A DNA stretch of 64,000 nucleotides, taken from NCBI RefSeq assembly GCF_004210375.1, contig NC_134834.1, positions 92,880,170-92,944,169 on the forward strand, given 5' to 3'. Numbering within the stretch: the stretch's first letter is position 1; each line of letters starts with the position of its first letter. Shown here piece by piece: positions 17,416 to 62,997 of this stretch. This stretch comes from Tachypleus tridentatus. Its lineage: Eukaryota > Arthropoda > Merostomata > Xiphosura > Limulidae. The notes under the pieces are model-generated. The model was not told where the DNA came from. It made no database searches and saw only the letters and a list, made by a program, of their open reading frames with translations. Made by a program: the position numbers and the translations under genes.

Positions 17416-17948
17416 TCAAAATTTCAGGCTATTTGAAATAGTAATACGTAACATAACAAATGGGAGATTAGTCTGGGATACTTTATAATACGTAACATGA
17501 GCTTCCATTATTCCCTTAATGAGACACTTTTCCCCATTAATTCTAAGTTTCATTGAATTATGTGCCTTGGTGATATGAATGTCAATATTATTACTAACTG
17601 AATAAAAACGGACATTTTTATATACATTTTTTTCGATTGCATTTTGCACAAACCACCAAAAATATAATTTTATATCACAAATTTTAAATAAAGCTGTAAA
17701 TACCTCATTAGACTTGGGCTCTCTTCCTTTATTTAACCTCCTTCTGTCACCGGAAGTATTGTTATTACCATTTACTGGTAACGTAGAGGAGGAGGCAGGG
17801 TAGTCATCTGGTGGTGGTGGAGGTGGCAGTGGGAACATTGGAGGTGGTGGAGGTGGCTGTAATAGTGGTCGGGTTTTCTCCAGGTCTACATATCGATGGG
17901 GTAAGGTGCCATTCATACTGTACGGGTAGATTTTCTCGGTCACTGCTT
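17416..17948 (-). CDS. sDscam: Constant exon: proline-rich cytoplasmic tail, possibly terminal
   Basis: Acceptor TTTCCAG at 17949, entering in phase 1. Encodes EAVTEKIYPYSMNG, a tyrosine-containing stretch HRYVDLEKTRPLL, then PPPPPPMFPLPPPPPPDDYP, a candidate SH3/EVH1 ligand, and GDRRRLNKGREPKSNE. At 17703 a GAG|GTATTT donor would end the exon in phase 0 after 245 nt. If it is not used, the frame runs 95 more codons to a stop at 17416 with unremarkable sequence. No matching downstream exon was recognised, so the true C-terminus is open. Low complexity fades after SNE, which favours splicing. Confidence 0.8.
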
Positions 17949-35900: not shown

Positions 35901-38900
35901 AAATAAAATATTTTAAGGGTTCATACCATGTAAAGAGAAACATAATGAACATAAAATGATCAAAGATATAAACTTCGTTACACGTACAAAGAAGTCACAG
36001 GTGCTTTTGAAACTACCAAATACCCTCGTTCTAATAATCTGAGTTGTTACAATTCAAGTTTCAAACTTAATCGACCTGCAACAAAAGTAGGGAAACACTG
36101 AGGTGGTAGTGACGTATGCCACATTCAAGACATATTCTGATGATTCATTGTAGACTACTTACTTTAAGAGATTCACCAACACATGAATGAATAATGTTCT
36201 CTGTCATAATTCAATTTCTATTAATTATCACTTTTTACTTTCTAAACTACTCTGCCATATGTAGCTAGTATTCGTTAGTTAATTTTCATGGATTAACTCC
36301 CTGTCAAGCGATACTGCACATATGCAACTAGTAAAACAGCAACCCGAAGAGTCGTGTATACCAAACATAGGGCATAATACGTTATAACGTGAACAGTGGT
36401 CCTTGTATAACCTCATTATTTTAATTCTGCGTTACTGGTGCCTGTTGTGAACAATACATTTGGTAGGAAATTACAAAGCTCACCTGGTATACTGAGTGAT
36501 GTGGTGAACTGATCAGAACCATGGTGATTTCTCACGATACAGGTGTAATTTCCAATATCCTTCTCTCCAATAGAACTCACTTTCAACAGAGAATAATCCT
36601 CAAATGTCTTTATGTCCACCAGAGAGCGCTTCATCAGTGGGTGCCCGTCTTTCAGCCACTGAAATTCTAATGGTCGTTCACCTTCTGTTGGTGTACAAAT
36701 TGCTTTTACAGTCTGGCCTTCATGCAATGTTTTGGGAAAAGTAAAAGGTTGAAGCTTTGGTGCACCTGTAATGAAGTGTATAACTAATTGATTTATTGAT
36801 ACCTAACTTAAATCTCACTACGTCAAAAACAGGCGTAGCTAAACTACACACGTCTTAAGTACCCACGATATGTTATGCCTTTATAGCATACATATATTTT
36901 TATTCACTTAATATCTAATCATATACCTGGATTTTCACACCACCTTTATCAGAAGTTAAAAACTACAGTAGTTTTACTCTACAACTACCTGCTAATTTTT
37001 ATGTCACACATATCTGGTCTACTTTCAAAAGGTCTTAACTGTGAACGTTTCTAGAACTTGTGACTGTCTTAAAATATCACATGTTCTAATATTTTTATTA
37101 AATTATTTCGTTTTCAGATACCTTACAGGTGTATACACGCTAGTAAAAAAAAACAGAAAATAAAACCTACTTGTTCCATTCACGAGTGATGCCAGAGACA
37201 GCAGGCATACGATAAAAAACGGTGTTACATCCATCCCAGCACGGTTTTCAAACTTCTTAGGAAACGGGACGAACGTAATATTTTACCGTCAGCTTGCACG
37301 AGTTTCCACGGTGAACTGGATTAGATATAGCCTAATGGTTGAGTTTTCGGCTTTGTGAAATAATGACCAATGTACAACTAGTAACTATTTAGGGCAGATG
37401 TTGCAAACTTCAGGTTTGATACTTGGCTTATTTCACAATTAAGCTGAGAAAATAAAACTCGGCAACAATCGAATGGTAGAGAATGGAGGGATGAGCAAAA
37501 CTGTCATGAGTGTCAACCGTGGAACAGCAGCGCCACTCTAGTTTGCCTGCTATAATAATGTATTTTGTAAAGACGACACTCAAGTCATATTAATATTAAT
37601 TCTAACATTACATAATACTCGTGTTAAATGATTTATTAAAATTTTGCTCAAATTGTGTCTTTAAAATGACAGGAACCACGCGTGTGTAATGTTTTGTAAA
37701 TTACTGAATTAATAAAAATAATTCGTATACTATATTTTGCTGTTTCTTTAAATACACGTTAAATTTATGTCGCATTCTGCTTGTTCCTATATGCATATAA
37801 AATAATACAAGACACTTGATCATTATGACGTCATTAAATGTCGAAAACTATGGTATGAATCTTTTAGTTTTGTACCACGGTAACGACGTAAGGATGCTTA
37901 CTTGTTTAGCATCTTCAAGTGATAAAAAAAGCATCTGTATAAGTTAATAAAATGATGTAAAAGAAGTTTCTATATAACACATTTACTGAAGTAAAACAGG
38001 TTTCTATATAACACATTTACCAATCTAAAAGAGGTGTGTATTTCAACATAAATACCAACACTAGTACAGTTTATTTATTGTTGTCCACACAGTATATAAT
38101 TATTCGAATATAAGTGAAAGAAGGCTCAACGTTCCATAGAAAATCACAATTTCACCTCTTACAGTCAGCAATACAGTTTTATCAATATCTCTTCCAACTC
38201 CGGTCGATGCGTGGCATGAGTAATAACCAGCATCTTCAGCCCGAGCGTTGCTGATGGTAAGAGCGCCATCTGGATATATTTTGCTTCTAGTTTCAGGTAA
38301 CCCTATAATGTCCGAATCTGAACCACCCCCTGCAAAATAAAATAACATAAAATGACACGAATCATTTTTAGTAAGCTTTAAAACACTAACGCAGGTTATT
38401 ATACATAATATACAAATAAATACTGAGGATTTTTAGATCACTTCTTACAGATATATTATATACTAAATTGTAATTTAACTCAAAGGAATCTTAAGTTTAT
38501 TAATTTGTATTTCTTTCGTATCTTCCAGTTTTTAGACCTTATTATAAAATGGTAAAACACAAATTTTATTTTAATTTAGTACATCTTGGATAGGAAATTG
38601 GTTTCATTAAGATATATTTTACATTTGATACACATTTATAGAAATATCACTGATACACAGGACTAAATTGTGCTATTTACATGATTTAGCTACTTAATTT
38701 GGACAACTTTGAACTGAAGATTTTCTTGTTTTTTGAATAACGTAAAAACTTCTCACAATCAATAAGAAAATAAATACGGAGCAACAAATATCTGACACTT
38801 ATTTATTTACATGACAACACTGAAACGAACAGCAACATCATGGAGGCAAAATTATTTAGACTTAAAGAGTAACAACTCCCTGAAAACTCATTTGTTACAT

Positions 38901-41900
38901 GAAAAATAGACTGTTACAGCGTGATTCCTGAAGAAATGAAATTATACAGAAAATGGATTAGATGAATATTTCAGTTTACCCAAATCATACAATTTCTCAA
39001 AGGTCTGAAACCAGTTAATGAAAGAAAGAAAATATTTAGCTTTCGGTTAAGTCAGCTTAATGTGTGGATTTAGGACTAACCTAAATCACTTTGGCTGACC
39101 GAATATAGCGAGATATTGAATTTACTGTCAAAAGCAACGTTAACAGACAGGGCAACCAACTGATGAAACAATGCATTCTCATAGTTATAAGTAAGCACAA
39201 TATATCTAAATAGCCATATTTATTATTGGAATTATTTCTATTTTTGATCTAATCAAGTAGCTATCTTTTGTTAGAAGTCAATATCAACTCAATAGGGATT
39301 AGAAAGTCATATATTATTTACCTAATACTAAACGAAAAGTAAGGGCCAATATCATCAAATTCATTAATAAAATTAATTAATCGATAGGTTAAACTTACTT
39401 GAGTATCTTTTCCACTGTATAACCGGTTTCGGGTATCCTAGAGCGGCGCAGTTGAAGATAGCCTTTTCTCCAATGCTAACAGTAACATCTTGAGGCTCGT
39501 GACTCCAGCGGGGAGGGCCTTGAGGTGAACACAACATAAATACAGTTAACTAAACTCAAAACAAACGAACATAAAACTGTAAGAACGTCAGTGGCTAGCC
39601 AATGTATACTGCTGTTAGTAATTAGGCACAAATCTACACAATGGACTATCTGTGCTCTGTCCACCACGGGTATCAAACCCGGAATCTAGCATTGTAAGTC
39701 CGCAGACATACAGCTGTGCTCCTGATAGCAGACAATGTTGAGCTATAAGGACTTCTAGAGAAACATTATGAATGTTTCTCTAAAATAAACGTAAGAATAT
39801 TTAACATCCATAGCATAAAATTATGAAAAACAAATATAATTATTTACAAAAGAAAAAAAAAAGACAAATTTATAACAAACAGTTGTTATTAAATGACTAG
39901 CTCATGATATCATTGGTCAGAGTCTTCAAGAAATTATATAGATAAAAAGTTTAATACAAAAAAAATCAAAATAATACTGTAAAAGACATATTTCAGCACG
40001 TTAAATATAAGATTTATTTAAGAAGTAACTATTTTACTTCATAACTTACTCTTCTCTGTGGCATTGATATTAGATGAGAATCAGTTAATGATTCTGTGAA
40101 AAACTTAACATAACCTACTGTTTCTATTATGGAATTAATCACATAATGGGCGAAATTTAGAGATTTTTAGAAGAAATAAAAAAGGGGGCTTTTCCTCAAC
40201 AAAATATTTTTGTAAATAGCGATTTTGATCTCTTTTTACCACAGGGTTACAGACACGACAAAATAATTATCTGAAATACATAGCTTTGTAAATCAAAACA
40301 GACAGAAAATGGCGTCTTACCTTTCACTAATAACTCAGATGAAAAGCTGTCTTTTCCTTCCGGATTTGTTGCTACACAGGTATAGTTTCCAATGTCATTT
40401 ACATTCACTTTGTTTATCATTAGAACTGAGAGCCTTCCAATGGTGTGAACTGTCCAATGACTTTGTGGCTGAATGGAATTTCCGTTTCTAAGCCAACTAA
40501 ATTTTACTGGATCATCACCTTCTTCCAAACCACAGGTAACTTGTATTGTTTTTCCTTCTTCTGTTACTTCCGGAAAATAAAATGGCTGGATTTTGACCGG
40601 AACTAAGGGGAAAATATTTCAGTATACTCGTATTTGCTAATGAAAATTCAGATTTTGACCGGAAATAAGGGGGAAATATTTCAGTATACTCGTGTTTGCC
40701 GATGAAAATTCAGATTTTGACCGGAACTAGGGGGAAATATTTCAGTATACTCGTATTTGCTAATGAAAATTCAGATTTTGACCGGAACTAAGGGGAAATA
40801 TTTCAGAATACTCGTATTTGCTAATGAAAATTCAGTTAGAAAAAATAAAAAAACGCTTTAACTAAGAGAAAGAAACAGCTACAGTGGACTAGACAATTAT
40901 ATAATTTAATAATATTAATTAGAAGAAGTGCATGGTCAGTTTAACCAATTCTTAGCTCCTTAAATAATAAGTAAAACATGCAAGTTTTATGAATAACCGG
41001 ACTACTACAAACAAGTGTTTGGGGAAAACATTCATAATTTGTTTGTTATTTGAATTTCGCACAAAGCTACACGAGAGCTATCTGCGCTAGCCGCCTCTAA
41101 TTTAGCAGTGTAAGACTAGAGGGAAGGCAGTTAGTCATCACCACCCACCGCCAACTCTTGGGCTACTTCAGCGAATAGTTGGATTGATCGTCAATTTCTA
41201 ACGCCCTTACAGGGAAGGCAGTTAGTCATCACCACCCACCGCCAACTCTTGGGCTACTCCAGCGAATAGTTGGATTGATCGTCAATCTCTAACGCACTTA
41301 CAGCTGAAAGGTCGAGCATGTGTGGCGCGACGGGGTTTAGAACTCGCGATCCTCAGAGTGAGAGTTGAGTGCTCTAAACACTTGTCCGTGCCGGACGTTG
41401 ACATGTGTTCAAGTTTATTTAAACAGAAATTTAGAATTGTCACTAGTAGTACCTTGTAATTTTGTTATAAAGGAACTATGCACGTTGGATCAAAATAAAT
41501 ACATAACTATAATAATAAAAAACTTGTACAACTATTTACGAAAATTGCATTCCGTTCATATCATTTATCTGATACTTGAAAATCAAAACAGATATTTCAA
41601 TAAATATATTAAAATTATTTTCATGAGATTTTTTTTTAATCTGGGAAGCAGAAATAAAAGGGTAGGAAAGACCAAATCATTAGATTTCTCAAAGAACGTT
41701 TTGATTTTGTTAATCAAATTTTATTAATATATATCTAACATAACACATATTAACTATACAAGATGAAGATAATTATTAAAAATATTAAACATAATACCCG
41801 ACTTTCAATGTGTTAGGTATAGTGGACAAGTTACACGTATTTATACTATCTAAAAATAGTGCACCAAAAACAGAGGGCGCTTTAAGGGCTGTCGTATTAA

Positions 41901-56900: not shown

Positions 56901-59900
56901 ATATTTCAAGTACGAAGATGTTATGAAATTTGTTCTTGAAATTATTAATTTCATATGCTTAAACGGGAAGACCCGTCGACAGTTCAAAAGTTTTATTAAA
57001 GAACTAGAGCTTGGAGATAAACCCAGCAATGTATCTTTCTACTGCATTGTGAGGTGGCTATCAACCAGCAATATGTTAAATAGGTTTGTGGATCTGTTAG
57101 AGCCTATTATTACTTTTCTTGAAGAAAATAAAAGATTATATCATCAACTGGGAAATGATGAATGGATGCAAGATCTAATGTTTCTTACTGATATAATGAA
57201 TCATCTACAAACTCTCAACTTGGTACTCCAGGGTAAGGATAGGATTGTTTCTGATGTTACTCAGACAATTTTCAGTTTTCCGAATAAAATAAAACTTTTT
57301 TAAAGAGACATATTGTCAAGAAACTTCAGTTACTTTCCCAATCTCAAAAGGAGAGTAAATACATTCCATGAAATTGAAATAAAAGACCACAAACTGGAAG
57401 AATACAAAGATAAACTACAAGGACTGCTTAATAATTTCCTAAACAGTTTTGAGGACTTGCTTCGCCTTTCTTGTAAATCCATTCATGGTTGGTGTGATCA
57501 ATGATGGTTGTCCAATTCTTGAACCTCTGGTTACAGAATCATCTGCTATGGAAATGGAACTAATAGAACTACAGGAGGACATGGGTCTAAATATGATCCA
57601 TAAATCTCATTCAACAGTTGAGTTCTAGAAGCTAGTTACAGAAATAAAATATCCTGAACTGAAGAAAACCAGTGTGCGACTCATCACAATTTTCAGCACA
57701 ACATACTGCTGTGAATCACTGTACTCTGTAATGAAGTTCGTGAAATCAAAGCATCGTGCAATCCTTACAAACCACACCTGAAGGAGCTGATTCGTACAGC
57801 CTTGACAACCTATCAGCCGGAATTTCAACGCTTCACAACCAAGATGGAAACTCACATGACCTCTACTGGCAGTAAATAGCCTGACAGGTGCATCAATGTG
57901 TGTCAGAAAAACATTATAATAAGACTAAAATTTTGTAAGGTGGTATCTGATTAATATATCTCTAATTTCATTGTTTTACATATTTTCCTCCATGTTTTGA
58001 CCAGATATTTACTAAGACAAATAAATATCATTAAAATATCTGTTTTTACCACTTTTATTTTTATTTTTGGCTGTCTCATCCAATGTTAATGAAATACAAA
58101 TATAAATATTTTTCTTAGATAGTTCCGTAGTTCATTACCGTATTAAATACACTAAGTATAGTTAAAACAATAATCAGCCAGGATTTTGAAAAAAAATATA
58201 TAGTATATATATGTACTTTGTGGTTATTAAAACTAATACAAGTTAACAGTTTAAAAACTACATACATGAATAAATATTATTACATACATGTATTTCTTAA
58301 TATTTATATAAAATTTATGTAACAAAATGTTCATGTAACAATAAAAAATGTGTGTAATATTTGTCATGCAGCTGTCAAACATCTGAAGTTTATCCTATGT
58401 GACTCTTACGTTAAGCAAGTTTGGCCACACCTGATCTATAACGTTAAAGATGATCTCATGAGAAAAAAACGAAACAGTTGTGAACAATATATTCACTTAT
58501 ATAATATATCCATTACACATAAATACAGTTGTGTACAACAGATTCATCACACTAACTTACAGTTGTGTACATTATACCCTTCACACATTGTTTTGTACAC
58601 CAAACTCATTACACTTTCACTGCACCAGAGATAGTTGCTATCATCTTCTCTTAACTACCATCTTTGGTTTATGTTGATGTATAATATCAAAAGCCATGTT
58701 GTCTTAAGCTAATTCTGATTCAAAAGTCAAACAGTCCAATTTACGTTTCAACACAGTTTGGAAATAACCAATAACGGTCAGCCAAGGCCAGATTCAGTAA
58801 TTATCAACGAAACACTATCTGAAAACCGTTTTTAATAATCCCAGTGCACATTCGTAAAACCGACCTATGGAGCTTATATTACAGTTCTAAAGCACTCTCG
58901 TATATGAACTGCAAAGCAAATAGAAGCCATGGTGGCTGATTCGGAGCTTAATCTACACGTATTTAGGATGTTATTAAATATTCAACCAGAAAACAAACAC
59001 ATTTTTTTCTGCCGATACCAGGTTTGTGTCTCGTTTCTGTTCATTATATCGCACATTATATGGGTAAATATTTCATCACTAAACCTTATAAATTATTACA
59101 AGTTTATGAATGAATAATTCTATATGCAAGTATCTCATAACTTCAATGATATAGTAACTATACAGTACCGAATCCAATCTACTAGAGGAGACAACAAAAT
59201 GACTGTGGAAGTTGGATAACTAGTATAACACTGTATAAAGGATATTGTCTAACAATATTTGAATAGAGTCTTGCAATTTAACGAAGACGTCTCTACCAGT
59301 TCTTAAGTATTACCTTCCCCTTACAACAGAATAGTGTAACAGAGTTTGGGATATAGCAAAGTAAAATTTATTGTCCATCTCAGAAATGGTACCACAGTCA
59401 GATAATGTAGCCTACAGTTACGAGCATCTATCAAGAAAAGTTGCTGATTACTAAACGTATACTGTCTACAGAGGTCAGTATTATACATGCTTATTTGGTC
59501 ATTGACGTGTTAAGATTCTTTAAACAAATTTAACAGCTGGGATAAATTACGGAACAATAACCAGAAGATTTTTTAAAACGACACAATAAACATCCTTACA
59601 GATACAAGCTTCATATTCAACACTACTTTTACTTACCCCTAACCAGTAACTCAGCTGTGAAGAGATCTACTCCAACTGAATTCCGTGCACTACACGTATA
59701 ATTTCCTGAACTTTTCACTGTCACATTTTTAACAGTTAAAACAGAAACACTTGAAGATGACAAGATATCATACAAACTTCCTTTGGTGATCACGATGTCA
59801 TTCTTTAACCACTGGAAGTCCACTGGCAAATTTCCCCGTTCTAACCCACACATTACTTGGATGTTGGTCTGTTCTGTTGGGTTTGAGGGAAATTGAAATG

Positions 59901-62506
59901 GCTGAATTCTCAGTGTTCCTGTATATCAGATAACATTAAAATTAACAAAACATGTTTAACTTAAAAACATGAATAATTCAACTATTCACCAAGAACAAAG
60001 TTTGGTTAATTTATTCAACATCTTACAAATATCGTATTGACAATATTCAATGTGTTTAAAAATTTTAGTTGCGTTAAGATTAAGTCTCCATAATATGAAT
60101 ATATACATATATCTAGATAGGTAAACAGCTGACGAGAGCTTACCTGTACTTGAAATAGTGACGAATAGCCTGAAGATACAGATGACAATCGGCAACACTC
60201 GACCACAGCAGACATTAGAAAAATACAGATACACCCAAAGAACCATGATGATAATGTTCTTTGTTCGTTTTCTCATTCCATCTGATACGTTCTTTCAAAT
60301 TTGAAACATAAAAAATATTCTTAGAAGTTTTTCCATCTCTTGGATGGGCTAACTTCCATTATTAAGATTCTTTGAAAAATTGTACAAAAAGTCGTTCAGG
60401 TCTCTGCAATGAGGCAAATTCAATAATATGCCAGAGTTACAACATTTGAAGATGGCGAGCGACTGTTTGCGAAGGTTTTCCGCAAAGCTTTGTGATAGCG
60501 CCATGCAGCGTCGAAAATTATTTTTCATATTTAGTTATATTTGTAAACAATGTTTTTGTACGAAATGTCAAACCACAAACTATTATCTGTACGGATATAC
60601 GTATTAAAATTTGATTGTTTTAAGCCAACATTTAATGTGCATTTGAATAAGTTATATATTTCACTTGTGCTCTTTGAGAGCTGGTGGCACAATGCAATTC
60701 GACATTAAACCACTTGTTTAATAATATTTCAAATCAGTACATAGTTAACTAGTATTAAAATATAATTATAAAAAATATATAAAACGCAATAGGCATTTGT
60801 ACGTACAAATTTGATAATGCATGTATAAAAGTTCGTTCATGTACATACAAATTTATTTATTTCAATAATCAAACTGATCACTAAAAAACACATCATAGCA
60901 GTCTCTTTGATTTTTATTAAAATTCACCTATTGTAGTTAGTCGTATTGTCTTCTGTAATTCTTCACCAATACCATTCCAGGATTTACAAGTATAGAGACC
61001 ATTGTCTTCTTCTTTGACAGTTTCCACGACAAGCGTGCCATCAACAACATAAACACGATTTGGAATTGTATTCCCAGGTATTTCTTTCCAAATTCCGCCT
61101 ATGGAAAGAAGCGTGAATTTTTTAATATCCTATATTTATTTTATTTAGAATGAGGGAATAATAAACACGAAAAACAAAACTGGAAACTACTTTACAATAT
61201 GTACTTATTCCTTACTGTTCTCATTCGTCCACGTTATTCTTGGGGTTGGAAAACCAAATGTTCTACACGGAATCTTCACAGTATCACCAAGATTAACGGA
61301 AGTGTCTGATGGCTTCAGATGCCACGATGGAGGTCCTATAAAACCACAGAGAAAAGAGTCGGTCAATAAATCCTAACATATAGTTCTATTGTGGAACATG
61401 CAAGTGTTTACCTACGTATGAAAACATTATGACAAACGCAAGTTCTTTAAAAAAACAACTCCCAGATTAGAACTCGTTGCTTCGGACATTTCAGATCCAA
61501 CAACACCACAGAAGTTTCTGCACATTTGTGATTTATTATTATACATCAAACTTTACTTCTTAGAATATTTCTCTTTTATCCAGAAGTATTAGATATATTG
61601 CTAATATTTTAAATAAAATAACATAAATATACAGCGATGAAATGGCTTGAGAGTGGTGCTGGGGATCTCATTAGCGTTTTCGCGCATTTTATTAATTATA
61701 TCGAAAACATATTATGATAAGCAATATTTGAGTTACATGAAAATTTAAGCATATGGAATACTAACCAATCACAAAATAGTATTTTTTAAGAAAACATAAA
61801 ACTTTTACCTTTAACAAGAAGCTCGGCTGTGTACATATCTCTTCCCGCTGAAATTTCGGCCTTACAGGTATAATTTCCTGATTCTTCGCTGTGGACATTT
61901 GTCACGGTAAGAAGAGAAAACTTATCAGTAGAATGAATGTTAAGTCCTTCTCGAGACTTTAACATTAAACCGTCTTTCAACCATGAAAAATTTACGTTTC
62001 CAGCTCTTTCTTTTAATCCACATACAACTTGCACTTCCTCGCCTTCTTCCACGCCTTCAGGAAAACTAAATGGACGAATTTTAACAATTTCTGGAATAAA
62101 ACAGAATAAGATCTATTTAAAGTGTTACATCTGTAAAAAGGTATCATATTTATCAGAACTTTTCAGAAATAAGTTAAGAAAAGTATGTGGTATACAGATA
62201 TACTTTTCTTACTTCTGAGCGATTAAAACCTTAAGACTCTACAAATGGATAAGGTTCGAAACAAAACGATTGGTTTACAATGTATATAATAAGTTAATAA
62301 ATATTATATATAAAAGTACAATTTGCTATAAGTATTCTACAATATCTATACCACATAACAATGATTGTTCAGTGAGGAAACTTGAACTAATAAAAATATA
62401 TGAGTCCATAATTACCTTCAGAAGAAGACCAGTTCACGAGAAAGAAGAAATGGAACAGTATAGAAACGGTCAATCCTCTCGTCGTTGCGAATGTGGAATA
62501 CTTCAT
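17416..62506 (-). CDS. sDscam: sDscam-beta-like adhesion gene, whole locus
   Basis: Single-pass membrane cell-adhesion protein of the short Dscam family (3 Ig + 3 FNIII + membrane span), which in chelicerates has tandem 5' cassettes and mediates homophilic recognition (family knowledge). Seen here: six tandem four-exon cassettes (33143-62506) followed by ten constant exons (17416-29133). Each cassette contributes its own start codon, signal peptide, Ig1 and Ig2. Each cassette sums to 3n+1 nt, so all six join constant Ig3 in phase 1. With cassette A the protein is 756 residues to the end of the last recognised spliced exon, or 851 if that exon reads through to its stop. The family and architecture are secure. 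The exact paralogue name, the untranslated regions and any further 3' exons are not visible. Confidence 0.93.
17976..18028. repeat. 17-bp tandem repeat, three copies
   Basis: CCCACTTTATATTGTAT is repeated three times, just upstream (gene sense) of the acceptor of the cytoplasmic exon. Confidence 0.93.
18885..19087 (-). mobile_element. SINE family 1, degenerate, in the sDscam TM-tail intron
   Basis: Recognisable body (TCCGTGCTAGCC, AATTTAGCAGTG) and tRNA-like head (TTGCGAGTCAAGTGTC) in the gene orientation. Many substitutions and a small internal loss mark it as old. Confidence 0.82.
19140..19316 (-). CDS. sDscam: Constant exon: juxtamembrane and transmembrane segment
   Basis: 177 nt, phase 1 to 1. 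After KGPMKWNFHAVITGEEELPV comes a single hydrophobic span of about 25 residues (LPVLAPLAASVAIIVFVLV then TSCVYV). The stop-transfer sequence KKEQRRYNR follows. This gives a type I topology with the Ig/FNIII ectodomain outside the cell. Acceptor TCTCTTCAG, donor GTGAGT. Confidence 0.94.
20070..20220 (-). pseudogene. GIY-YIG endonuclease remnant of the Penelope-like element
   Basis: In one minus-strand frame the sequence reads IIYKIQCDNCHDFYIVETSR and THKKSPSHVFEHC, matching the CxxC-bearing GIY-YIG domain of Penelope-like elements, with FYIG changed to FYIV. The frame breaks on both sides. Confidence 0.7.
20560..20930 (-). pseudogene. Penelope-like reverse transcriptase fragment
   Basis: Encodes MGNPVLPVLANIFMTQVETQ and WYRYVDDTVAGF, with the catalytic YVDD at about 20797-20812. 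Only the C-terminal part of the RT is present. The N-terminal fingers are missing and the entry to this frame is shifted. Confidence 0.88.
21768..21956 (-). CDS. sDscam: Constant exon: FNIII-3 second part
   Basis: 189 nt, phase 1 to 1. Encodes HYILFYKEDSGTWTEVTIPQ, YTLQGLRAGSVYHMYLQAAS and QIGNSNPSETVSVKTDGA, closing the third FNIII domain. Acceptor TTACTTCAG, donor GTAAGT. Confidence 0.94.
22238..22327 (-). CDS. sDscam: Constant exon: FNIII-3 first part
   Basis: 90 nt, phase 1 to 1. Encodes DPPPPPSLWVSAQSETSITI, then NWEQSTDIIS. Acceptor CATCTTTAG, donor GTAAGT. Confidence 0.92.
22579..22816 (-). CDS. sDscam: Constant exon: FNIII-2 remainder
   Basis: 238 nt, phase 0 to 1. Encodes APPKDHWNGQLKGYYVGYKE, then EYLLRHLLKNTDYGIVVRAF and NDAGTGPES, all typical of Dscam FNIII repeats. 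Acceptor TTGTCAG, donor GTAAAT. Confidence 0.95.
23005..23100 (-). mobile_element. Possible old SINE family 2 fragment
   Basis: GTGCACAATGGACTATATGC and GGGAACCAAACCCC resemble the family 2 tail and B box. Very degenerate. Confidence 0.4.
23659..23729 (-). CDS. sDscam: Constant exon: FNIII-2 first part
   Basis: 71 nt, phase 1 to 0. Encodes EPSAPPTDVQVEARGAGTFH and IKWK. Acceptor TTCTTTAAG, donor GTTAGT. A short exon with a non-canonical-looking but valid donor. Confidence 0.92.
24796..24821. repeat. TG microsatellite
   Basis: About 13 TG dinucleotides in the FNIII-1 to FNIII-2 intron. Confidence 0.95.
25873..26037 (-). CDS. sDscam: Constant exon: FNIII-1 second half
   Basis: 165 nt, phase 1 to 1. 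Encodes TILRKLQPGTSYVVRVIAEN, the conserved L-x-P-x-T-x-Y-x-V-R-V core of FNIII, then NVGKGTPSENRRFLTKEE. Acceptor AATTTAG, donor GTACAT. Confidence 0.94.
26147..26278 (-). CDS. sDscam: Constant exon: FNIII-1 first half
   Basis: 132 nt, phase 1 to 1. Encodes EPPSAPSDVRVDQAWSRSIS, VTWTVP and PVNKYLIQYWRNQ, the A-to-C' strands of a Dscam fibronectin type III domain. Acceptor ACCTGTAG, donor GTACAT. Confidence 0.94.
26431..26686 (-). mobile_element. SINE family 1
   Basis: Nearly full length in the FNIII-1 to Ig3 intron: CGAGGGCTATCT tail, body, and head ending GGCCATGCTGGGCC. Confidence 0.92.
26948..27037. repeat. Inverted repeat around a Penelope-type end motif
   Basis: A 23-bp arm at 26948-26970 (ACGGCTGGTATCGGTATTAA plus CAC) pairs, with two mismatches, to 27015-27037. 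The spacer holds CAACGTTTCGACCAT, the same motif as at the end of the Penelope-like element at 19737-21063. Probably a solo terminal fragment of a related element. Confidence 0.7.
27128..27206 (-). mobile_element. SINE family 2 fragment
   Basis: Partial copy with GCAAAGCTATACAAAGGGCT and TATCGAAACCCGG. The anticodon arm is lost. Confidence 0.6.
27375..27523 (-). CDS. sDscam: Constant exon: Ig3 second half
   Basis: 149 nt, phase 2 to 1, acceptor TACTCTAG and donor GTATTT. Encodes EGGMLSEIQVHGVDRSDNG and LFTCLAKNTYGED with the partner Cys, ending IIKLIVL. The phase-2 junction makes this pair obligatory partners. Confidence 0.94.
28454..28569 (-). mobile_element. SINE family 2 with near-perfect target duplication
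   Basis: TTACGAGAAAGT (28442-28453) and TTACAAGAAAGT (28570-28581) flank a 116-bp copy that keeps the longer tail (GGGCTATGTTGTTCAGCCCA). It lies in the Ig3 internal intron region, downstream of exon 28986. Confidence 0.9.
28986..29133 (-). CDS. sDscam: Constant exon: Ig3 first half
   Basis: 148 nt, phase 1 to 2, acceptor TCTAATAG and donor GTAGGG. Encodes VPARFEEKFDVKRIHRGDSA, AKLECDARGDNP (Cys) and MTITWNKDN (Trp). The PARFEEKF-type start is characteristic of a Dscam Ig domain. Every cassette splices to this exon. Confidence 0.94.
30636..30722 (-). mobile_element. Possible old SINE family 2 fragment
   Basis: CACAATGAGCTATTGTTCAG and GCTTACTGGTGAACCA echo family 2. The B box is not preserved. 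Confidence 0.35.
31182..31452 (-). mobile_element. SINE family 1
   Basis: Full-length copy in the cassette F to Ig3 intron, with the TTCGAACCTGCGACC B-box region and terminal TGGCCATGCTGAGCC. Confidence 0.93.
32291..32312. repeat. AT microsatellite
   Basis: About 11 AT dinucleotides. Confidence 0.93.
33143..33310 (-). CDS. sDscam: Cassette F exon 4: Ig2 second half
   Basis: 168 nt, phase 1 to 1, acceptor GTATTCAG and donor GTAAGA. NGSLVITSVQEEDTGKYKCS, then VTKMITLSLY. This is the last variable exon before constant Ig3, 4.0 kb downstream. Confidence 0.93.
33143..37234 (-). CDS. sDscam: Variable cassette F (signal peptide, Ig1, Ig2), nearest the constant region
   Basis: Exons are 37171-37234, 36484-36765, 33420-33545 and 33143-33310, all phase 1. 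It is the most divergent cassette: Ig1 has ICTPTEGERP where the others have CGLxEG (CGLKER in A), and Ig2 starts VAPKWIREP in place of GPPxW. The Ig1-Ig2 intron is about 2.9 kb, with one SINE and a 26-bp tandem repeat. Confidence 0.92.
33420..33545 (-). CDS. sDscam: Cassette F exon 3: Ig2 first half
   Basis: 126 nt, the longest of its class, phase 1 to 1, acceptor AATTATAG and donor GTAAGT. VAPKWIREPTSVSV, VTLDCIVGGHP (Cys) and PIVSWTFHPTT (Trp). Confidence 0.92.
33904..34030. repeat. 26-bp tandem repeat, about 4.9 copies
   Basis: The unit TTAAGTGTTAAGACCAATGA plus GGATAA is repeated with one A/G difference in copy 2. It lies in the cassette F Ig1-Ig2 intron. Confidence 0.95.
35225..35510 (-). 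mobile_element. SINE family 1 with 11-bp target duplication
   Basis: CAGAACGTGGA at 35214-35224 is repeated at 35511-35521. Well-preserved full-length copy in the cassette F Ig1-Ig2 intron, likely among the younger insertions here. Confidence 0.95.
36484..36765 (-). CDS. sDscam: Cassette F exon 2: Ig1
   Basis: 282 nt, phase 1 to 1, acceptor TTCATTACAG and donor GTGAGC. VKAICTP (Cys24), FQWLKDG (Trp37) and IGNYTC (Cys76), followed by SDQFTTSLSIP. Confidence 0.94.
37171..37234 (-). CDS. sDscam: Cassette F exon 1: start and signal peptide
   Basis: 64 nt. Leader MDVTPFFIVCLLSLASLVNG then T, a textbook short signal peptide with a likely cut after VNG. Two overlapping ATGs occur; only the upstream one stays open. 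Donor GTAGGT, phase 1. Confidence 0.92.
37483..37534 (-). promoter_or_regulatory. Cassette F bipartite upstream element
   Basis: Plus-strand GAGAATGGAGGG (ATGGAG at 37483, the weakest proximal box) and AGCAGCGCCACTCTAG (AGCGCC at 37529), 46 bp apart and 249 and 295 bp upstream of the start codon. It lies about 620 bp past cassette E. Confidence 0.45.
38156..38329 (-). CDS. sDscam: Cassette E exon 4: Ig2 second half
   Basis: 174 nt, phase 1 to 1, acceptor TATTTTGCAG and donor GTGAAA. DGALTISNARAEDAGYYSCH with the partner Cys, then KTVLLTVR. Confidence 0.93.
38156..42491 (-). CDS. sDscam: Variable cassette E (signal peptide, Ig1, Ig2)
   Basis: Exons are 42389-42491, 40321-40602, 39399-39518 and 38156-38329, all phase 1. 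The leader-to-Ig1 intron holds two SINEs and a local repeat that multiplies the Ig1 splice acceptor. The Ig1-to-Ig2 intron holds a fragment of the second SINE family. The coding sequence is intact. Confidence 0.92.
39399..39518 (-). CDS. sDscam: Cassette E exon 3: Ig2 first half
   Basis: 120 nt, phase 1 to 1, acceptor ACCTCAAG and donor GTAAGT. GPPRWSHEPQDVTV, AIFNCAALGYP (Cys) and PVIQWKRYS (Trp). Confidence 0.93.
39626..39735 (-). mobile_element. SINE family 2, degenerate
   Basis: ACAATGGACTATCTGTGCTC, TATCAAACCCGG and GCATTGTAAGTCCGCAGAC match family 2 with many substitutions. It lies in the Ig1-Ig2 intron of cassette E. Confidence 0.8.
40321..40602 (-). CDS. sDscam: Cassette E exon 2: Ig1
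   Basis: 282 nt, phase 1 to 1, acceptor CCCCTTAG and donor GTAAGA. IQVTCGLEEGDDPV (Cys24), FSWLRNG (Trp37) and IGNYTC (Cys76). Decoy copies of the acceptor lie just upstream (see the repeat at 40589-40835). This acceptor is the only one that keeps the frame open. Confidence 0.93.
40589..40835. repeat. Four 61-62 bp tandem repeats carrying copies of the Ig1 acceptor
   Basis: Units start with TTTTGACCGG at 40591, 40653, 40715 and 40776. Copy 1 contains the true acceptor and first bases of the cassette E Ig1 exon. Copies 2-4 repeat that junction further upstream in the intron. On the gene strand copies 3 and 4 keep CCTAG/CTTAG before TTCCGG, while copy 2 has lost the AG. From a decoy the frame runs to TGA five codons in. 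Confidence 0.92.
41041..41395 (-). mobile_element. SINE family 1 with internal 91-bp duplication
   Basis: The segment GGGAAGGCAGTTAGTCATCA onward occurs at 41121-41211 and again at 41212-41302, making the element longer than its relatives. It lies in the leader-to-Ig1 intron of cassette E. Confidence 0.93.
41931..42121 (+). mobile_element. Short SINE family 1 variant with 12-bp target duplication
   Basis: Flanked by TCAACTAAAATG at 41919-41930 and 42122-42133. The head and first part of the body are present, but the sequence passes directly from GATGATGACC to the A-rich end. The TAGCTGCCTTCCC-to-AGATAGCCC part is missing. The intact flanks imply the short form itself was inserted or was trimmed internally. 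Confidence 0.92.
42389..42491 (-). CDS. sDscam: Cassette E exon 1: start and signal peptide
   Basis: 103 nt. Leader MILRSGKCFYPHFLQKIQ, then the hydrophobic core CVVLVILAKTIFAYAY. Donor GTAAGTGT, phase 1. Confidence 0.87.
42671..42736 (-). promoter_or_regulatory. Cassette E bipartite upstream element
   Basis: Plus-strand GAAAATGGCGATTCG (ATGGCG at 42671) and GACAGCGCCACATAGTG (AGCGCC at 42731), 60 bp apart and 180 and 240 bp upstream of the start codon. Read on the gene strand the distal box is CACTATGTGGCGCTG, the closest of the six to a CTCF core such as CCACTAGGTGGCGCT. Confidence 0.57.
43252..43416 (-). CDS. sDscam: Cassette D exon 4: Ig2 second half
   Basis: 165 nt, phase 1 to 1, acceptor ATTTAG and donor GTAAAG. 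GTLSLVNVQRSNEGYYTCIV and KRIEIKIK, parallel to cassette C. Confidence 0.93.
43252..44777 (-). CDS. sDscam: Variable cassette D (signal peptide, Ig1, Ig2)
   Basis: Compact cassette (1.5 kb) with no transposon. Exons are 44669-44777, 44036-44317, 43660-43779 and 43252-43416, all phase 1. Ig1 and Ig2 are closest to cassette C (shared LKIRPF, CGLEEG, SVLE, NVKV and the Ig2 GPPTWK-EP start), suggesting a fairly recent duplication of one from the other. Confidence 0.93.
43660..43779 (-). CDS. sDscam: Cassette D exon 3: Ig2 first half
   Basis: 120 nt, phase 1 to 1, acceptor GACCGTAG and donor GTAAAT. GPPTWKKEPVDAEV, VEIHCSAYGLP (Cys) and FVVWTKEN (Trp). Confidence 0.93.
44036..44317 (-). CDS. sDscam: Cassette D exon 2: Ig1
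   Basis: 282 nt, phase 1 to 1, acceptor CCTGCCAG and donor GTTAGT. VQVVCGLEEG (Cys24), FKWIKDG (Trp37) and SGNYTC (Cys76). Confidence 0.94.
44669..44777 (-). CDS. sDscam: Cassette D exon 1: start and signal peptide
   Basis: 109 nt. Starts MAIWKTCKCSFYMLVLQRII. The hydrophobic core is weaker than in the other cassettes, and internal ATGs exist (MLVLQ, MNTTK). The predicted leader is 36 residues and ends phase 1 at donor GTGTGT. Confidence 0.75.
44943..44993 (-). promoter_or_regulatory. Cassette D bipartite upstream element
   Basis: Plus-strand AAATATGGCGATCC (ATGGCG at 44943) and AGCAGCGCCACATACCG (AGCGCC at 44988), 45 bp apart and 166 and 211 bp upstream of the start codon. It lies about 500 bp past cassette C. 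One of the cleanest copies. Confidence 0.55.
45489..45653 (-). CDS. sDscam: Cassette C exon 4: Ig2 second half
   Basis: 165 nt, phase 1 to 1, acceptor ACATATAG and donor GTAACA. The acceptor was set by frame: a second AG four bases downstream would give a stop-containing frame. Encodes IFRIENVQRNDEGSYTCIV and KKTIEIKVK. Confidence 0.9.
45489..53565 (-). CDS. sDscam: Variable cassette C (signal peptide, Ig1, Ig2)
   Basis: Exons are 53499-53565, 52801-53082, 45964-46080 and 45489-45653, all phase 1. The Ig1-to-Ig2 intron is 6.7 kb, the longest in the array, and holds three SINEs plus the 75-copy minisatellite. Ig1 begins VPLKIRPF, almost the same as cassette D (APLKIRPF), making C and D the closest pair. 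The coding exons are intact. Confidence 0.91.
45964..46080 (-). CDS. sDscam: Cassette C exon 3: Ig2 first half
   Basis: 117 nt, phase 1 to 1, acceptor ATCTTAG and donor GTAGTG. Encodes GPPTWKDEPSDTEV, VALRCFAYGSP (Cys) and SVVWTKL (Trp). Confidence 0.92.
   Translation of the reverse strand, partial: GHRRGKTNLLIRKLELENQLLFVVLLMDHQRPLLCGQN
46605..46873 (-). mobile_element. SINE family 1
   Basis: Full-length divergent copy in the cassette C Ig1-Ig2 intron: GTGCTAGCCGTCC body and GATTACGAGTCGAATGCC head. Confidence 0.92.
46952..47224 (-). mobile_element. SINE family 1
   Basis: Second copy 80 bp from the previous one in the same orientation. More divergent (TGGGATAGCCATATC) and independently inserted by its different flanks. 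Confidence 0.91.
47225..48030. other. Unclassified, possibly old mobile-element DNA in the cassette C intron
   Basis: Slightly GC-richer than its surroundings with short broken plus-strand frames. No domain recognised. It sits between SINEs and may be a decayed transposon. Confidence 0.3.
48041..48320 (+). mobile_element. SINE family 1 with 9-bp target duplication
   Basis: ACCTCAAGT at 48032-48040 and 48321-48329. Full length, starting GGGCCCAGCATGGCC and ending in an A-rich CAAACAAAC tail. It lies 48 bp before the minisatellite. Confidence 0.93.
48368..51622. repeat. 75-copy 43-44 bp minisatellite
   Basis: A near-perfect tandem array. Each unit reads CTTGATAGAAATGAAATAAA followed by ACAACCTATACACCGCGTGC and AGT, with 4-6 A's at the A-run as the main length variation. 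I counted 75 starts of the TCTTGAT word. Copies 1-30 (to about 49670) all read GATAGAAA. From copy 31 onward GATGGAAA appears and becomes the majority. One unit near 48760 lacks GCAGT, and one near 49115 carries an extra A-rich insert. The short reading frames across it are artefacts. It lies in the Ig1-Ig2 intron of cassette C. Confidence 0.97.
51623..52800. other. Unclassified intron DNA after the minisatellite
   Basis: Begins with a GC-rich flank (TTTCGAAAGGCGGGGC). No Ig exon, transposase or repeat recognised down to the cassette C Ig1 donor. Confidence 0.5.
52801..53082 (-). CDS. sDscam: Cassette C exon 2: Ig1
   Basis: 282 nt, phase 1 to 1, acceptor TGTTTCAG and donor GTGAAT. KIQLICGLEEGDGEV (Cys24), FTWFKDE (Trp37) and SGNFTC (Cys76). 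The sequon is NFT here instead of NYT. Confidence 0.94.
53499..53565 (-). CDS. sDscam: Cassette C exon 1: start and signal peptide
   Basis: 67 nt. Leader MKKQLLLVWIYGMYFIRLTF then TK. A short basic start plus hydrophobic core is a typical secretion signal. Donor GTAAGTTG, phase 1. Confidence 0.88.
53761..53824 (-). promoter_or_regulatory. Cassette C bipartite upstream element
   Basis: Plus-strand GAAAATGGCTCC (ATGGCT at 53761, one mismatch to the common box) and TCTAGCGCCACACATCG (AGCGCC at 53819), 58 bp apart and 196 and 254 bp upstream of the start codon. It lies about 500 bp past cassette B. Confidence 0.5.
54325..54498 (-). CDS. sDscam: Cassette B exon 4: Ig2 second half
   Basis: 174 nt, phase 1 to 1, acceptor CCTACTAG and donor GTAACT. 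Encodes NGTLIIDETTYEDGGKYTCT with the partner Cys, then KTVYVNIR before the constant region. Confidence 0.91.
54325..60276 (-). CDS. sDscam: Variable cassette B (signal peptide, Ig1, Ig2)
   Basis: Exons are 60144-60276, 59637-59918, 54847-54963 and 54325-54498, all phase 1. The leader is the longest of the six (44 residues). The Ig1-to-Ig2 intron is stretched to about 4.7 kb, of which 2.9 kb is an inserted hAT element on the opposite strand. All four exons remain intact with good splice sites, so the insertion has not visibly broken the cassette. Ig2 carries YCDAYGYP and GKYTCT. Confidence 0.91.
54847..54963 (-). CDS. sDscam: Cassette B exon 3: Ig2 first half
   Basis: 117 nt, phase 1 to 1, acceptor TGATTCAG and donor GTGTGT. 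Encodes GPPRWQTIPRDTAV, LQLYCDAYGYP (Cys) and GVHWTKD (Trp). Confidence 0.92.
55079..55102. repeat. AT microsatellite
   Basis: About 11-12 TA dinucleotides in the cassette B Ig1-Ig2a intron, between exon 54963 and the hAT element. Confidence 0.93.
55545..58433 (+). mobile_element. Decayed hAT-family DNA transposon with 8-bp target duplication
   Basis: The left end CAGGGGTGGCCAAACC and the inverted right end (CAGGTGTGGCCAAAC on the other strand) are flanked by the perfect 8-bp duplication ATCTATAA at 55537-55544 and 58434-58441. The length is about 2.89 kb. The interior carries a ZBED-type hAT transposase in pieces on the plus strand. The element sits in the Ig1-Ig2 intron of cassette B, antisense to sDscam. 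Confidence 0.93.
56129..57880 (+). pseudogene. Broken hAT (ZBED-like) transposase
   Basis: Open segments at 56144-56497, 56534-56818, 56827-57303 and 57313-57504 are separated by stops and at least one frame change. Features in order: an N-terminal BED-finger remnant (CLICN then NLKRHYE), then STDIQYNPQLAVLVRY and ETDGASAMVG typical of the hAT RNase-H-like core, then FPVHCIIHREHLA, and near 57680-57800 a hAT C-terminal dimerisation remnant (CCESLYSVMKFVKSKHR in one frame). Inactive as it stands. I have not resolved which vertebrate-named hAT subgroup it is nearest to. Confidence 0.88.
59637..59918 (-). CDS. sDscam: Cassette B exon 2: Ig1
   Basis: 282 nt, phase 1 to 1, acceptor ATATACAG and donor GTAAGT. 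Ig signature: IQVMCGL (Cys24), FQWLKND (Trp37) and SGNYTC (Cys76), aligning without gaps to the other five Ig1 exons. Confidence 0.93.
60144..60276 (-). CDS. sDscam: Cassette B exon 1: start and signal peptide
   Basis: 133 nt. Begins MRKRTKNIIIMVLWVYLYFS, with basic residues then a hydrophobic stretch, and a second hydrophobic run VLPIVICIFRLFV. An internal ATG (MVLWVY) is an alternative start. Ends phase 1 at donor GTAAGC. Confidence 0.82.
60452..60502 (-). promoter_or_regulatory. Cassette B bipartite upstream element
   Basis: Plus-strand GAAGATGGCGAGC (ATGGCG at 60452) and GATAGCGCCATG (AGCGCC at 60497), 45 bp apart and 176 and 221 bp upstream of the start codon. It lies about 430 bp past the last exon of cassette A. 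The first box is close to the YY1 consensus AANATGGCGGC. Confidence 0.55.
60928..61098 (-). CDS. sDscam: Cassette A exon 4: Ig2 second half
   Basis: 171 nt, phase 1 to 1, flanked by TTCCATAG and GTGAAT. Encodes DGTLVVETVKEEDNGLYTCKS, giving the F-strand Cys that pairs with exon 3, and ends QKTIRLTTI before splicing to constant Ig3. Confidence 0.92.
60928..62506 (-). CDS. sDscam: Variable cassette A (signal peptide, Ig1, Ig2)
   Basis: First cassette in transcription order within the window and the most compact (1.6 kb). Exons are 62416-62506, 61809-62090, 61216-61335 and 60928-61098, all joined in phase 1. It encodes a 30-residue leader, a 94-residue Ig1 with Cys24, Trp37 and Cys76, and an Ig2 split between the W-containing half and the YTC-containing half. 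Its introns carry no recognisable transposon. No further Ig exons were found between it and the window edge, so it may be the 5' end of the array, but upstream cassettes beyond 64 kb cannot be excluded. Confidence 0.92.
61216..61335 (-). CDS. sDscam: Cassette A exon 3: Ig2 first half
   Basis: 120 nt, phase 1 to 1, flanked by TATAG and GTAAGG. Encodes GPPSWHLKPSD, VKIPC (B-strand Cys) and PRITWTNEN (core Trp). The Ig2 domain is completed by the next exon. Confidence 0.93.
61809..62090 (-). CDS. sDscam: Cassette A exon 2: Ig1
   Basis: 282 nt, phase 1 to 1, acceptor TTTTATTCCAG and donor GTAAAA. Encodes a 94-residue Ig domain with EVQVVCGL (Cys24), FSWLKDG (Trp37) and SGNYTC (Cys76). The Asn-Tyr-Thr is a glycosylation sequon shared with all other cassettes. 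Confidence 0.94.
62416..62506 (-). CDS. sDscam: Cassette A exon 1: start and signal peptide
   Basis: 91 nt. The ATG at 62506-62504 opens a leader beginning MKYSTFATTR and continuing into the hydrophobic run SILFHFFFLV before NWSSSE. Donor GTAATT follows at 62415. It ends in phase 1, like every other cassette leader exon, which supports this start. Confidence 0.88.
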
Positions 62507-62715
62507 GATAAGTGCAACACACGGAAGTGATGTAATTCAGAAAAAATTATGTAGAACTATCCAAGCTCTGTTTTTACCACCAACAAAAATCTGTTTGTGT
62601 ATCTGATACAAATCGTTTTTTCTATATTTATTTAAGCTAGCAAAGTACAAACGCCATATTCTGCAGAGCATGTCGACAACAAGACGACTTTCAGATCAAG
62701 TGATCCATTGATAAA

Positions 62716-62771
62716 ATGGCGTCGTATTCTCCAACAACAGGATTGTTTGATGAGTATGCTATTGTAGCGCC
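62716..62771 (-). promoter_or_regulatory. Cassette A bipartite upstream element
   Basis: On the plus strand, ATGGCG (62716) and AGCGCC (62766) lie 50 bp apart and 210 and 260 bp upstream of the cassette A start codon. The same pair in the same order occurs upstream of all six cassettes, so it is a candidate alternative promoter. The flank GTAGCGCCGCGTA is the weakest match to the ACAT extension. Confidence 0.5.
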
Positions 62772-62997
62772 GCGTATTGAAAAAAATGAAAATACATTAA
62801 AATGTCTTAAAAAAGTATTCTGTTTGTTAATAAAATATCGAGAATATTTCATATCTGATGATGTAAAAACTCAGATTATTTCAGATCTGAATTTGAGCTC
62901 ATTGTCGGTAATTAGGATTAATACTGCAATCAAAAGTGTTCAGTTGAATGATGTGAAACGACAAGAGTTAGGGTTTACGGTTATGCTAAAAATGTAA
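62716..62997 (+). CDS. Unrecognised 93-codon ORF, divergent to sDscam
   Basis: Opens with AAAATGGCG, whose ATGGCG is itself the promoter-like box of cassette A, and runs 93 codons to TAA. The product (MASYSPTTGLFDEYAIVAPR at the start, with a KCLKKVFCLLIKY segment) is not one I recognise and shows no signal peptide or domain. It could be the first exon of a divergent gene, an upstream antisense transcript, or a chance ORF. The coding case is weak. Confidence 0.2.
   Translation: MASYSPTTGLFDEYAIVAPRIEKNENTLKCLKKVFCLLIKYREYFISDDVKTQIISDLNLSSLSVIRINTAIKSVQLNDVKRQELGFTVMLKM

Follow-up and report, generated by a model that had tools for sequence, protein, structure and literature searches.

A clustered sDscam gene with six alternative cassettes

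The 64,000-nucleotide stretch of the Tachypleus tridentatus genome analysed here (contig NC_134834.1; hereafter the window) contains a clustered sDscam gene of the four-exon-cassette (beta) type on its minus strand, and each of the six alternative 5' cassettes in the window is preceded by the same two-box element, a distal GGCGCT box followed by a proximal CGCCAT-like box. The beta type is recognised by tandem four-exon 5' cassettes encoding two immunoglobulin (Ig) domains and by a constant part whose exons encode Ig, FNIII, and transmembrane segments, and both are present. The cassettes lie between 62.5 and 33 kb on one strand, and each consists of a signal-type first exon and three Ig exons. 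In what follows, C1 to C6 are the window cassettes, and C5:, C6:, C7, C8, C10, C11, and C13 given with genomic positions are contigs.

60932..62506, minus strand: cassette C1, ATG at 62506, Ig exon 61807-62085, then 61226-61336 and 60932-61096
54326..60246, minus strand: cassette C2, ATG at 60246, Ig exon 59635-59913, then 54845-54964 and 54326-54463
45487..53565, minus strand: cassette C3, ATG at 53565, Ig exon 52799-53083, then 45962-46081 and 45487-45612
43262..44705, minus strand: cassette C4, ATG at 44705 (or 44754), Ig exon 44034-44318, then 43667-43780 and 43262-43366
38157..42471, minus strand: cassette C5, ATG at 42471 (or 42438), Ig exon 40319-40603, then 39406-39519 and 38157-38330
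33147..37234, minus strand: cassette C6, ATG at 37234, Ig exon 36482-36757, then 33436-33540 and 33147-33269
17700..29150, minus strand: constant part with further Ig, FNIII-like, transmembrane-like, and cytoplasmic frames (by eye, limits approximate)

Pfam detected Ig domains in the joined cassette C6 and in two scanned C1 exons; one C1 exon (the last exon alone) stayed below the cut-off. The Ig domain of cassette C6 is identical at 90 of 94 residues to PDB 7y73, presumably the beta3v7 structure from Limulus described in PMC10154414. Upstream of the window, the same strand has five more such Ig exons, at contig C10:92946332, 92950518, 92952892, 92956642, and 92966224 (span to 92966502). They probably belong to the same array, so the six cassettes of the window are probably not the whole of it.

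The same two boxes precede all six cassettes

On the gene strand, GGCGCT (AGCGCC on the plus strand) occurs at 6/6 cassettes, 256-300 bp before the assigned ATGs, and a CGCCAT-like box follows 45-60 bp downstream of it at all six.

62765..62780, minus strand: C1 distal box tcaatacgcGGCGCTA
62713..62721, minus strand: C1 proximal box CGCCATTTT, YY1-type
60496..60511, minus strand: C2 distal box ACGCTGCATGGCGCTA
60449..60457, minus strand: C2 proximal box CGCCATCTT
53818..53833, minus strand: C3 distal box ACGATGTGTGGCGCTA, exact consensus
53758..53766, minus strand: C3 proximal box AGCCATTTT, one change
44987..45002, minus strand: C4 distal box ACGGTATGTGGCGCTG, exact consensus
44940..44948, minus strand: C4 proximal box CGCCATATT
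42730..42745, minus strand: C5 distal box ACACTATGTGGCGCTG, CTCF score 10.6, the highest of the six
42668..42676, minus strand: C5 proximal box CGCCATTTT
37528..37543, minus strand: C6 distal box AACTAGAGTGGCGCTG, deviant 5' half
37480..37488, minus strand: C6 proximal box CTCCATTCT, weak

AGCGCC is found 15 times on both strands of the window compared to 4.5 expected, a number reached in 0/100 shuffles; nine of these occurrences are not at cassette boxes. Plus-strand ATGGCG is exact at four of the six proximal positions (42671, 44943, 60452, and 62716) and reads ATGGCT at 53761 and ATGGAG at 37483; taken alone, it is not enriched in the window (14 versus 10.4 expected; 20/100 shuffles). Four 6-mers are common to the six 450-bp upstream regions, and GGCGCT is the sole GC-rich one. 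Its presence in all six has P = 2.7e-10 under an order-1 model, and an equally improbable shared 6-mer appeared in 0/2000 dinucleotide shuffles. The score of the proximal box was reached by 0/300 shuffles at k = 6, 8, or 10, and all four window copies of the strict pair GGCGCT-(30-66)-CGCCAT are located at cassette starts, compared to 0.015 copies in shuffles. These shuffle tests on the distal box, the proximal box, and the strict pair rule out a chance origin of the box pair.

Outside the boxes, the six upstream regions cannot be aligned: in each of the 15 pairs, at least 7/100 shuffles reach the observed local-alignment score. That only the boxes are common to otherwise unalignable regions points to selection rather than to recent copying. 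We found no third shared motif between the proximal box and the ATG (reached by 5/60 shuffles at k = 6 and 28/60 at k = 8), upstream of the distal box (56/60 and 36/60), or between the boxes (35/60 and 33/60), and no consistent initiator (Inr) or TATA sequence in the six window upstream regions.

A sequence-only reading of this DNA had reported an exact AGCGCC in the same orientation at every cassette, with ATGGCG or a near match 45-60 bp away, and had considered six of six to be far from random. Position, orientation, and spacing are confirmed, with four exact proximal copies and two near matches, and the element stands clearly above shuffled upstream sequence, the comparison named beforehand as capable of refuting it. 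The constant short range to the start codon also holds, although the assigned ATGs give 256-300 bp instead of the proposed 211-295 bp and the ATGs of C4 and C5 are ambiguous. The phrase "all six cassettes" applies to the six in the window but, given the five Ig exons upstream, probably not to the whole array.

The likeness of the proximal box to YY1, suggested in the same reading, is borne out at the level of sequence. The YY1/Pho site is quoted as CGCCATnTT in PMC5526879, and the form CGCCATNTT is matched exactly in four of the six window cassettes, namely by CGCCATTTT in C1 and C5, CGCCATCTT in C2, and CGCCATATT in C4, a result that is significant for the set. The copies in C3 (AGCCATTTT) and C6 (CTCCATTCT) differ from it.

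Related arrays elsewhere in the genome carry the element

Genome-wide searches covered 2.167 Gb in 205 contigs. The two-box pattern (GGCGCTR, 33-60 bases, CGCCATHTT) returned 46 matches, compared to 23 for the reversed pattern. Eighteen of the 46 read as sDscam cassette starts: seven on contig C7, five on C8, five on C10, and one on C6. An Ig exon lies downstream in 12/12 loci on contigs C7 and C8 and in locus L019 on contig C6; the remaining sDscam matches, on contig C10, are four within the window plus L054. About 13 of the 28 other matches resemble, by eye, a tRNA-like short interspersed element (SINE) or another repeat. In the window, such a tRNA-like SINE (GGTATAGCCAGGTGGGTTAAGGCG...TTCGAGTCCC, by eye) is located at ~41936-42010 on the plus strand, and similar sequences explain several two-box matches.

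A test independent of the two-box pattern used the 30 best genome matches to the Ig exon of cassette C4, six of which are the window's own. Sense GGCGCT lies at most 1.5 kb upstream in 25 of these 30 loci (20/24 outside the window), and antisense GGCGCT in 6/30. Four of the five loci without it carry a GGCGTT form, TGTGGCGTT, followed by CGCCAT; in the fifth, window cassette C5, the box is situated 2.1 kb before the Ig exon. CGCCAT follows the distal box at 30-90 bp in 22 of the 30 loci (at L044, the CGCCAT at 81 bp is not the regular box, which reads CGCCGT) and at 29 bp in one more, and seven are without it. Among all 6-mers, CGCCAT shows the strongest upstream excess over downstream sequence in the 24 loci that are not the window's own (22 versus 6). 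Downstream, GGCGCT occurs in 11/30 loci and AGCGCC in 4/30; we suppose that the downstream GGCGCT copies are due to the next cassette beginning there.

A logo of 25 rows gave the window-type distal-box consensus ACGNTRTGTGGCGYTR, in which A at position 4 (A4) and T at position 10 (T10) recur. Since the search pattern itself biases this logo and four rows (L056, L060, L061, and L067) are misplaced, the likeness to CTCF rests instead on the 12-base comparison and the position counts in 30 loci given below. The long distal motif has 21 exact genome matches, 11 of them at sDscam cassettes, compared to 0 for the reversed control; it is concentrated in sDscam arrays, yet not exclusive to them. Two exact copies lie 41 bp apart at contig C5:57191588 and 57191629, away from sDscam arrays.

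Near-duplicate arrays on contig C7 show that the boxes are constrained: they changed at 3/150 sites and their flanks at 335/4050 (p = 0.0014), where the proximal place of L047/L049, which lacks CGCCAT, was set on ACATTGC. Two sDscam arrays on this contig, at 166.45-166.50 Mb (plus strand) and 166.86-166.90 Mb (minus strand), are ~0.4 Mb apart and inverted, and their upstream regions are 81-98% identical in six pairs, pointing to an inverted duplication.

The distal box resembles a CTCF site most clearly in distant arrays

CTCF scores were calculated with a vertebrate matrix that has a maximum of 33. The six window boxes reach -0.02, 4.3, 2.5, 8.2, 10.6, and -12.4. The CTCF consensus CCASYAGRKGGCRSYR with up to three mismatches finds only C4 and C5 of the six boxes, among 16 window matches, and AGRKGGCGCY with one mismatch again finds only C4 and C5 (eight window matches versus 4.0 expected; 5/100 shuffles). 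A G at position 10 (G10) is nearly invariant in vertebrate CTCF sites, and three of the window's own six boxes have T10. The statement that the six window boxes are CTCF sites is too simple, considering their low matrix scores, the missing G10, and a consensus that retrieves C4 and C5 only.

We analysed sDscam arrays that are distant from the one in the window, on contigs C13 (182.64-182.69 Mb, two parts), C6 (77.97 Mb and 123.35 Mb), and C8 (109.2 Mb). They comprise 35 cassettes with at least 400 bp of upstream sequence, and their Ig exons are ~33-46% identical to that of C4. Sense GGCGCT occurs in 21/35 of these cassettes and antisense GGCGCT in 1/35. The best CTCF score upstream averages 9.60 in sense, 1.93 in antisense, and 0.14 in shuffled sequence, and scores of at least 12 are reached in 13/35 cassettes in sense and 0/35 in antisense, compared to 0.21 in shuffles. 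Twelve of the 13 high-scoring sites are on a GGCG core. The best distant site, TGACCACTAGATGGCGCTG (score 26.0, sense), is the sole full CTCF consensus match among the 35 upstream regions. T10 is found in 10/24 matrix-chosen sites of these other arrays. In all five GGCGCT-bearing cassettes of the arrays on contigs C6 (78 Mb) and C8 (109.2 Mb), CGCCAT lies 49-58 bp after the distal core, and in three of them it is CGCCATNTT. The sense CTCF-like sites of the distant arrays speak against the idea that the distal box is unrelated to CTCF.

The 12 bases that precede GGCGCT score closer to CTCF in sDscam arrays than at 32 control GGCGCT, which include copies that the two-box pattern had picked outside sDscam. 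This applies to 17 sites of the contig C13 and C6 (123 Mb) arrays (p = 1e-7), to five sites of the C6 (78 Mb) and C8 (109.2 Mb) arrays (p = 6e-4), near-duplicate cassettes being kept in the C13 and C6 groups, and to 23 sites of the window type (p = 9e-5), a set that includes three non-elements (the second of L044, -1426 of L061, and -1325 of L065) and leaves aside the GGCGTT copies. The same matrix was used here as well, and the difference holds in all three groups also when position 10 is omitted. The C at position 5 is kept in 14/17, 5/5, and 18/23 array sites versus 5/32 controls. The single G10 in the 23-site set belongs to a non-element; the three non-elements were excluded by hand from the 30-locus counts.

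The canonical CTCF site is quoted as CCASYAGRKGGCRS in PMC6746451. Most sDscam sites share with it C at position 5, R at 6, R at 11, K at 12, and GGCGCT, and one distant site, TGACCACTAGATGGCGCTG (see above), matches in full. Window-type sites differ in having mostly A4, never G10, and poor scores, and the full canonical core including G10 is not found among them. The proposed relation between the distal box and the CTCF core stands, though it is convincing only outside the window, where the array sites are better than the six boxes, which on their own are poor CTCF sites; the likeness as originally quoted fits C5, the best of the six, and is not typical of the other boxes.

Genome-wide, the canonical form CCRCYAGRKGGCGCT has 194 matches compared to 1 for the reversed pattern, and CTCF's usual specificity therefore appears to be alive in this genome. 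The T10 form CCRCYATRKGGCGCT, in which the other CTCF bases are kept, has 33 matches compared to 0 for its reverse. G11T12 accompanies 26 of these 33 T10 sites versus 16 of 100 listed among the 194 G10 sites (p = 8e-11). The window-type sDscam boxes are mostly of the T10 kind (21/30).

Within the window, the best CTCF-like site (36613-36631, plus strand, score 17.7) is located in the Ig exon (exon 2) of cassette C6 and is reversed relative to the gene. At locus L071, the CTCF-like sequence AGATGGCGCTC occurs twice, at 2009 and 3886 (minus strand), in opposite orientation and within Ig exons. Exonic CTCF sites are also a feature of protocadherin alpha, although there the orientation is opposite to that of these sites in C6 and L071.

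The genome encodes CTCF with the contacts of fingers 3-5 conserved

Two near-identical CTCF genes are present, at contig C11:16703939-16704580 and contig C13:51745612-51746256, with two differences in 218 residues. They are 59-63% identical to human CTCF over the matched fingers (finger 1 to the start of finger 8 compared). Fingers 3-5, which read the GRK-GGC-RSY part of the site, have the same contact residues as the human protein, and fingers 6 and 7, which read the 5' half, differ at contact positions. The conservation of fingers 3-5 suggests that a protein able to read GGCGCT is present. A third stretch, contig C11:17210443-17210697 (361 bases read), contains sequence for fingers 5-7 and the start of finger 8 that resembles the C11 gene, is preceded by unrelated sequence with stops, and is at most a possible third gene. 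Finger 5 should read G10. An altered finger 5 in a CTCF paralogue as the cause of T10 was considered and failed, as the contact residues are unchanged in the copies read.

Other features of the window

Open frames at 56105-57300 (plus strand), within the long intron of cassette C2, look like what we take to be a broken hAT-type transposase. Between the 3' exons of sDscam, frames with a retroelement look lie at 19967-20982 (minus strand) and presumably represent GIY-YIG-like and reverse-transcriptase-like stretches. A strong skew of A over T (0.27) is seen at 48001-52000, inside the long intron of cassette C3.

Discussion

The distal and proximal boxes, judged by their sequence, almost certainly form a functional promoter element, and the features of the distal box make its recognition by the CTCF family probable. 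As the overall explanation we favour, with slightly less assurance, an oriented CTCF-family promoter element at each sDscam cassette start, joined by a YY1-type box in some arrays. The distal box would be a CTCF-family site pointing in the direction of transcription at each start, with the form ACGNTRTGTGGCGYTR in the array type of the window and a form nearer to the canonical CTCF core in other arrays. The CGCCAT box, mostly of the YY1 type CGCCATNTT, would lie ~40-60 bp downstream in the window type and in two further array stretches. The distal box would be bound by CTCF itself or by a protein very close to it, which together with cohesin would bring one promoter at a time to a shared enhancer by looping, and a YY1/Pho-type protein would help to place or stabilise the start. 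That the cassettes make a protocadherin-like choice among promoters by this means is a tentative proposal, one we hold to be possible and somewhat short of probable.

Several observations weigh against this overall explanation. G10 is absent from 6/6 window boxes; the 30 Ig-selected cassettes have T (21), C (six), or A (three) at position 10 and never G, and G10 occurs in just 4/17 sites of the contig C13 and C6 (123 Mb) arrays and 2/5 sites of the C6 (78 Mb) and C8 (109.2 Mb) arrays. As G10 is absent or rare, we class the element as CTCF-like and not as a canonical CTCF site. Finger 5, with its unchanged contact residues, does not explain the preference for T10, and the coupling of T10 to G11T12 could mean that another protein is involved. 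The genome pattern counts may be inflated by repeats to some degree, and 10 of the 21 exact long-motif matches are outside sDscam arrays. Among the distant cassettes, 14/35 have no sense GGCGCT, one of the 13 high-scoring sites is not on a GGCG core, and near-identical cassettes account for two of them. CGCCAT is absent 30-90 bp from all 17 GGCGCT of the contig C13 and C6 (123 Mb) arrays, which do not share the YY1/Pho site of the window; this indicates that the distal box is the common part and that the YY1-type box is limited to some arrays. Furthermore, none of the 25 best CTCF sites in the window is a plus-strand site scoring at least 10 in the 17 kb behind the gene (below 17 kb), so the reverse-oriented site of protocadherin loci is either missing or located farther away.

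The distal box could instead be read by another zinc-finger protein, one that like CTCF recognises the GGCGCT end but has a preference for ATGTGG, with no CTCF at the window array. The lack of G10 in 30/30 loci, the recurrence of A4 and T10 (in the biased logo with its four misplaced rows), the T10-G11T12 coupling, and the ten long-motif matches outside sDscam would all fit such a protein. Against it, the 5' half before GGCGCT remains CTCF-like without position 10 (p = 1.3e-5), related arrays bear upstream CTCF-like sites including one full consensus match, and the genome as a whole is enriched in CCRCYATRKGGCGCT, which retains the other CTCF bases. We therefore regard this alternative as unlikely, though it deserves attention. 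Somewhat more plausible, but still on the improbable side, is an ordinary core-promoter or activator element without a role in promoter choice, which would be compatible with CTCF binding. The ~300 bp before a scorpion cassette are enough for promoter activity in S2 cells according to PMC4835542, the boxes lie at that distance, and the long motif is found outside sDscam too; the one-way orientation and the CTCF-like sequence are a better fit to a directional architectural site.

Two further explanations we consider highly improbable. The cassettes are tandem duplicates, and the boxes might be functionless remnants of duplication, but nothing else upstream can be aligned among the six, the boxes change less than their flanks, and sense GGCGCT persists in arrays with ~33-46% Ig-exon identity to C4; unalignable surroundings and slower change of the boxes rule out a passive remnant. 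Alternatively, TGGCG and CGCCA could pair in an RNA hairpin that steers splicing or translation, as five bases of one box are the reverse complement of five in the other in window cassettes C2, C4, and C5 (three of six). The departures CGGCG in C1, AGCCA in C3, and CTCCA in C6 have no compensating change in the other box, and GGCGCT stands without a partner box in the contig C13 and C6 (123 Mb) arrays (0/17), so the hairpin is ruled out for want of compensatory changes.

An oriented CTCF-family element at cassette starts invites comparison with the vertebrate clustered protocadherins, whose promoters carry a conserved sequence element (CSE, 'CGCT box') that, as described in PMC4978886 and PMC7811963, is bound by CTCF in forward orientation ~200 bp before the start codon. 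According to PMC7811963, CTCF cannot bind at protocadherin promoters when the CpG within the CGCT box is methylated. The sDscam arrays share with it a conserved CGCT, sense orientation, a similar distance before alternative first exons, and membership of a neuronal recognition array, and this layout is found in the window array type, where 4/30 loci have CGTT. They differ in that sDscam is an Ig-type arthropod family, position 10 is mostly not G, a second YY1-type box is present in several arrays, the window has no clear reverse-oriented partner, and CTCF binding and enhancer loops are putative. By analogy, we find it conceivable, at not quite even chances, that sDscam arrays and vertebrate clustered protocadherins reached the same promoter-choice device independently, often with the T10-G11-T12 subtype and in several arrays with YY1 pairing. 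Such an independent protocadherin-like mechanism is what we still infer, on a better foundation than before.

Tandem 5' cassettes with their own promoters are known from sDscam (Yue et al., 2016, PMC4835542; Cao et al., 2018, PMC5775551), and Yue et al. report that scorpion cassettes each have their own promoter, for which ~300 bp suffices in S2 cells. No shared cassette-promoter element was found in these papers by the words 'motif' and 'CTCF': both are absent from the main text of PMC4835542, and in that of PMC5775551 'motif' does not occur and CTCF appears in a reference title only. Beyond that title, a search of open-licence papers gave no link between sDscam and CTCF. PMC13317027 (2026) reports no CTCF orientation pattern in echinoderms, likens them to flies, and calls for more bilaterian lineages.

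One named element with an orientation and a consensus makes promoter choice among cassettes directly testable, and it is relevant to the question of orientation-dependent CTCF use in non-vertebrates. The alternative starts of horseshoe-crab sDscam may share a one-way, CTCF-related sign, and arthropods may have evolved a protocadherin-like trick on their own. If this is true, oriented CTCF logic would not be confined to vertebrates, and convergence between the two families would extend beyond the role of the proteins to the regulatory device itself.

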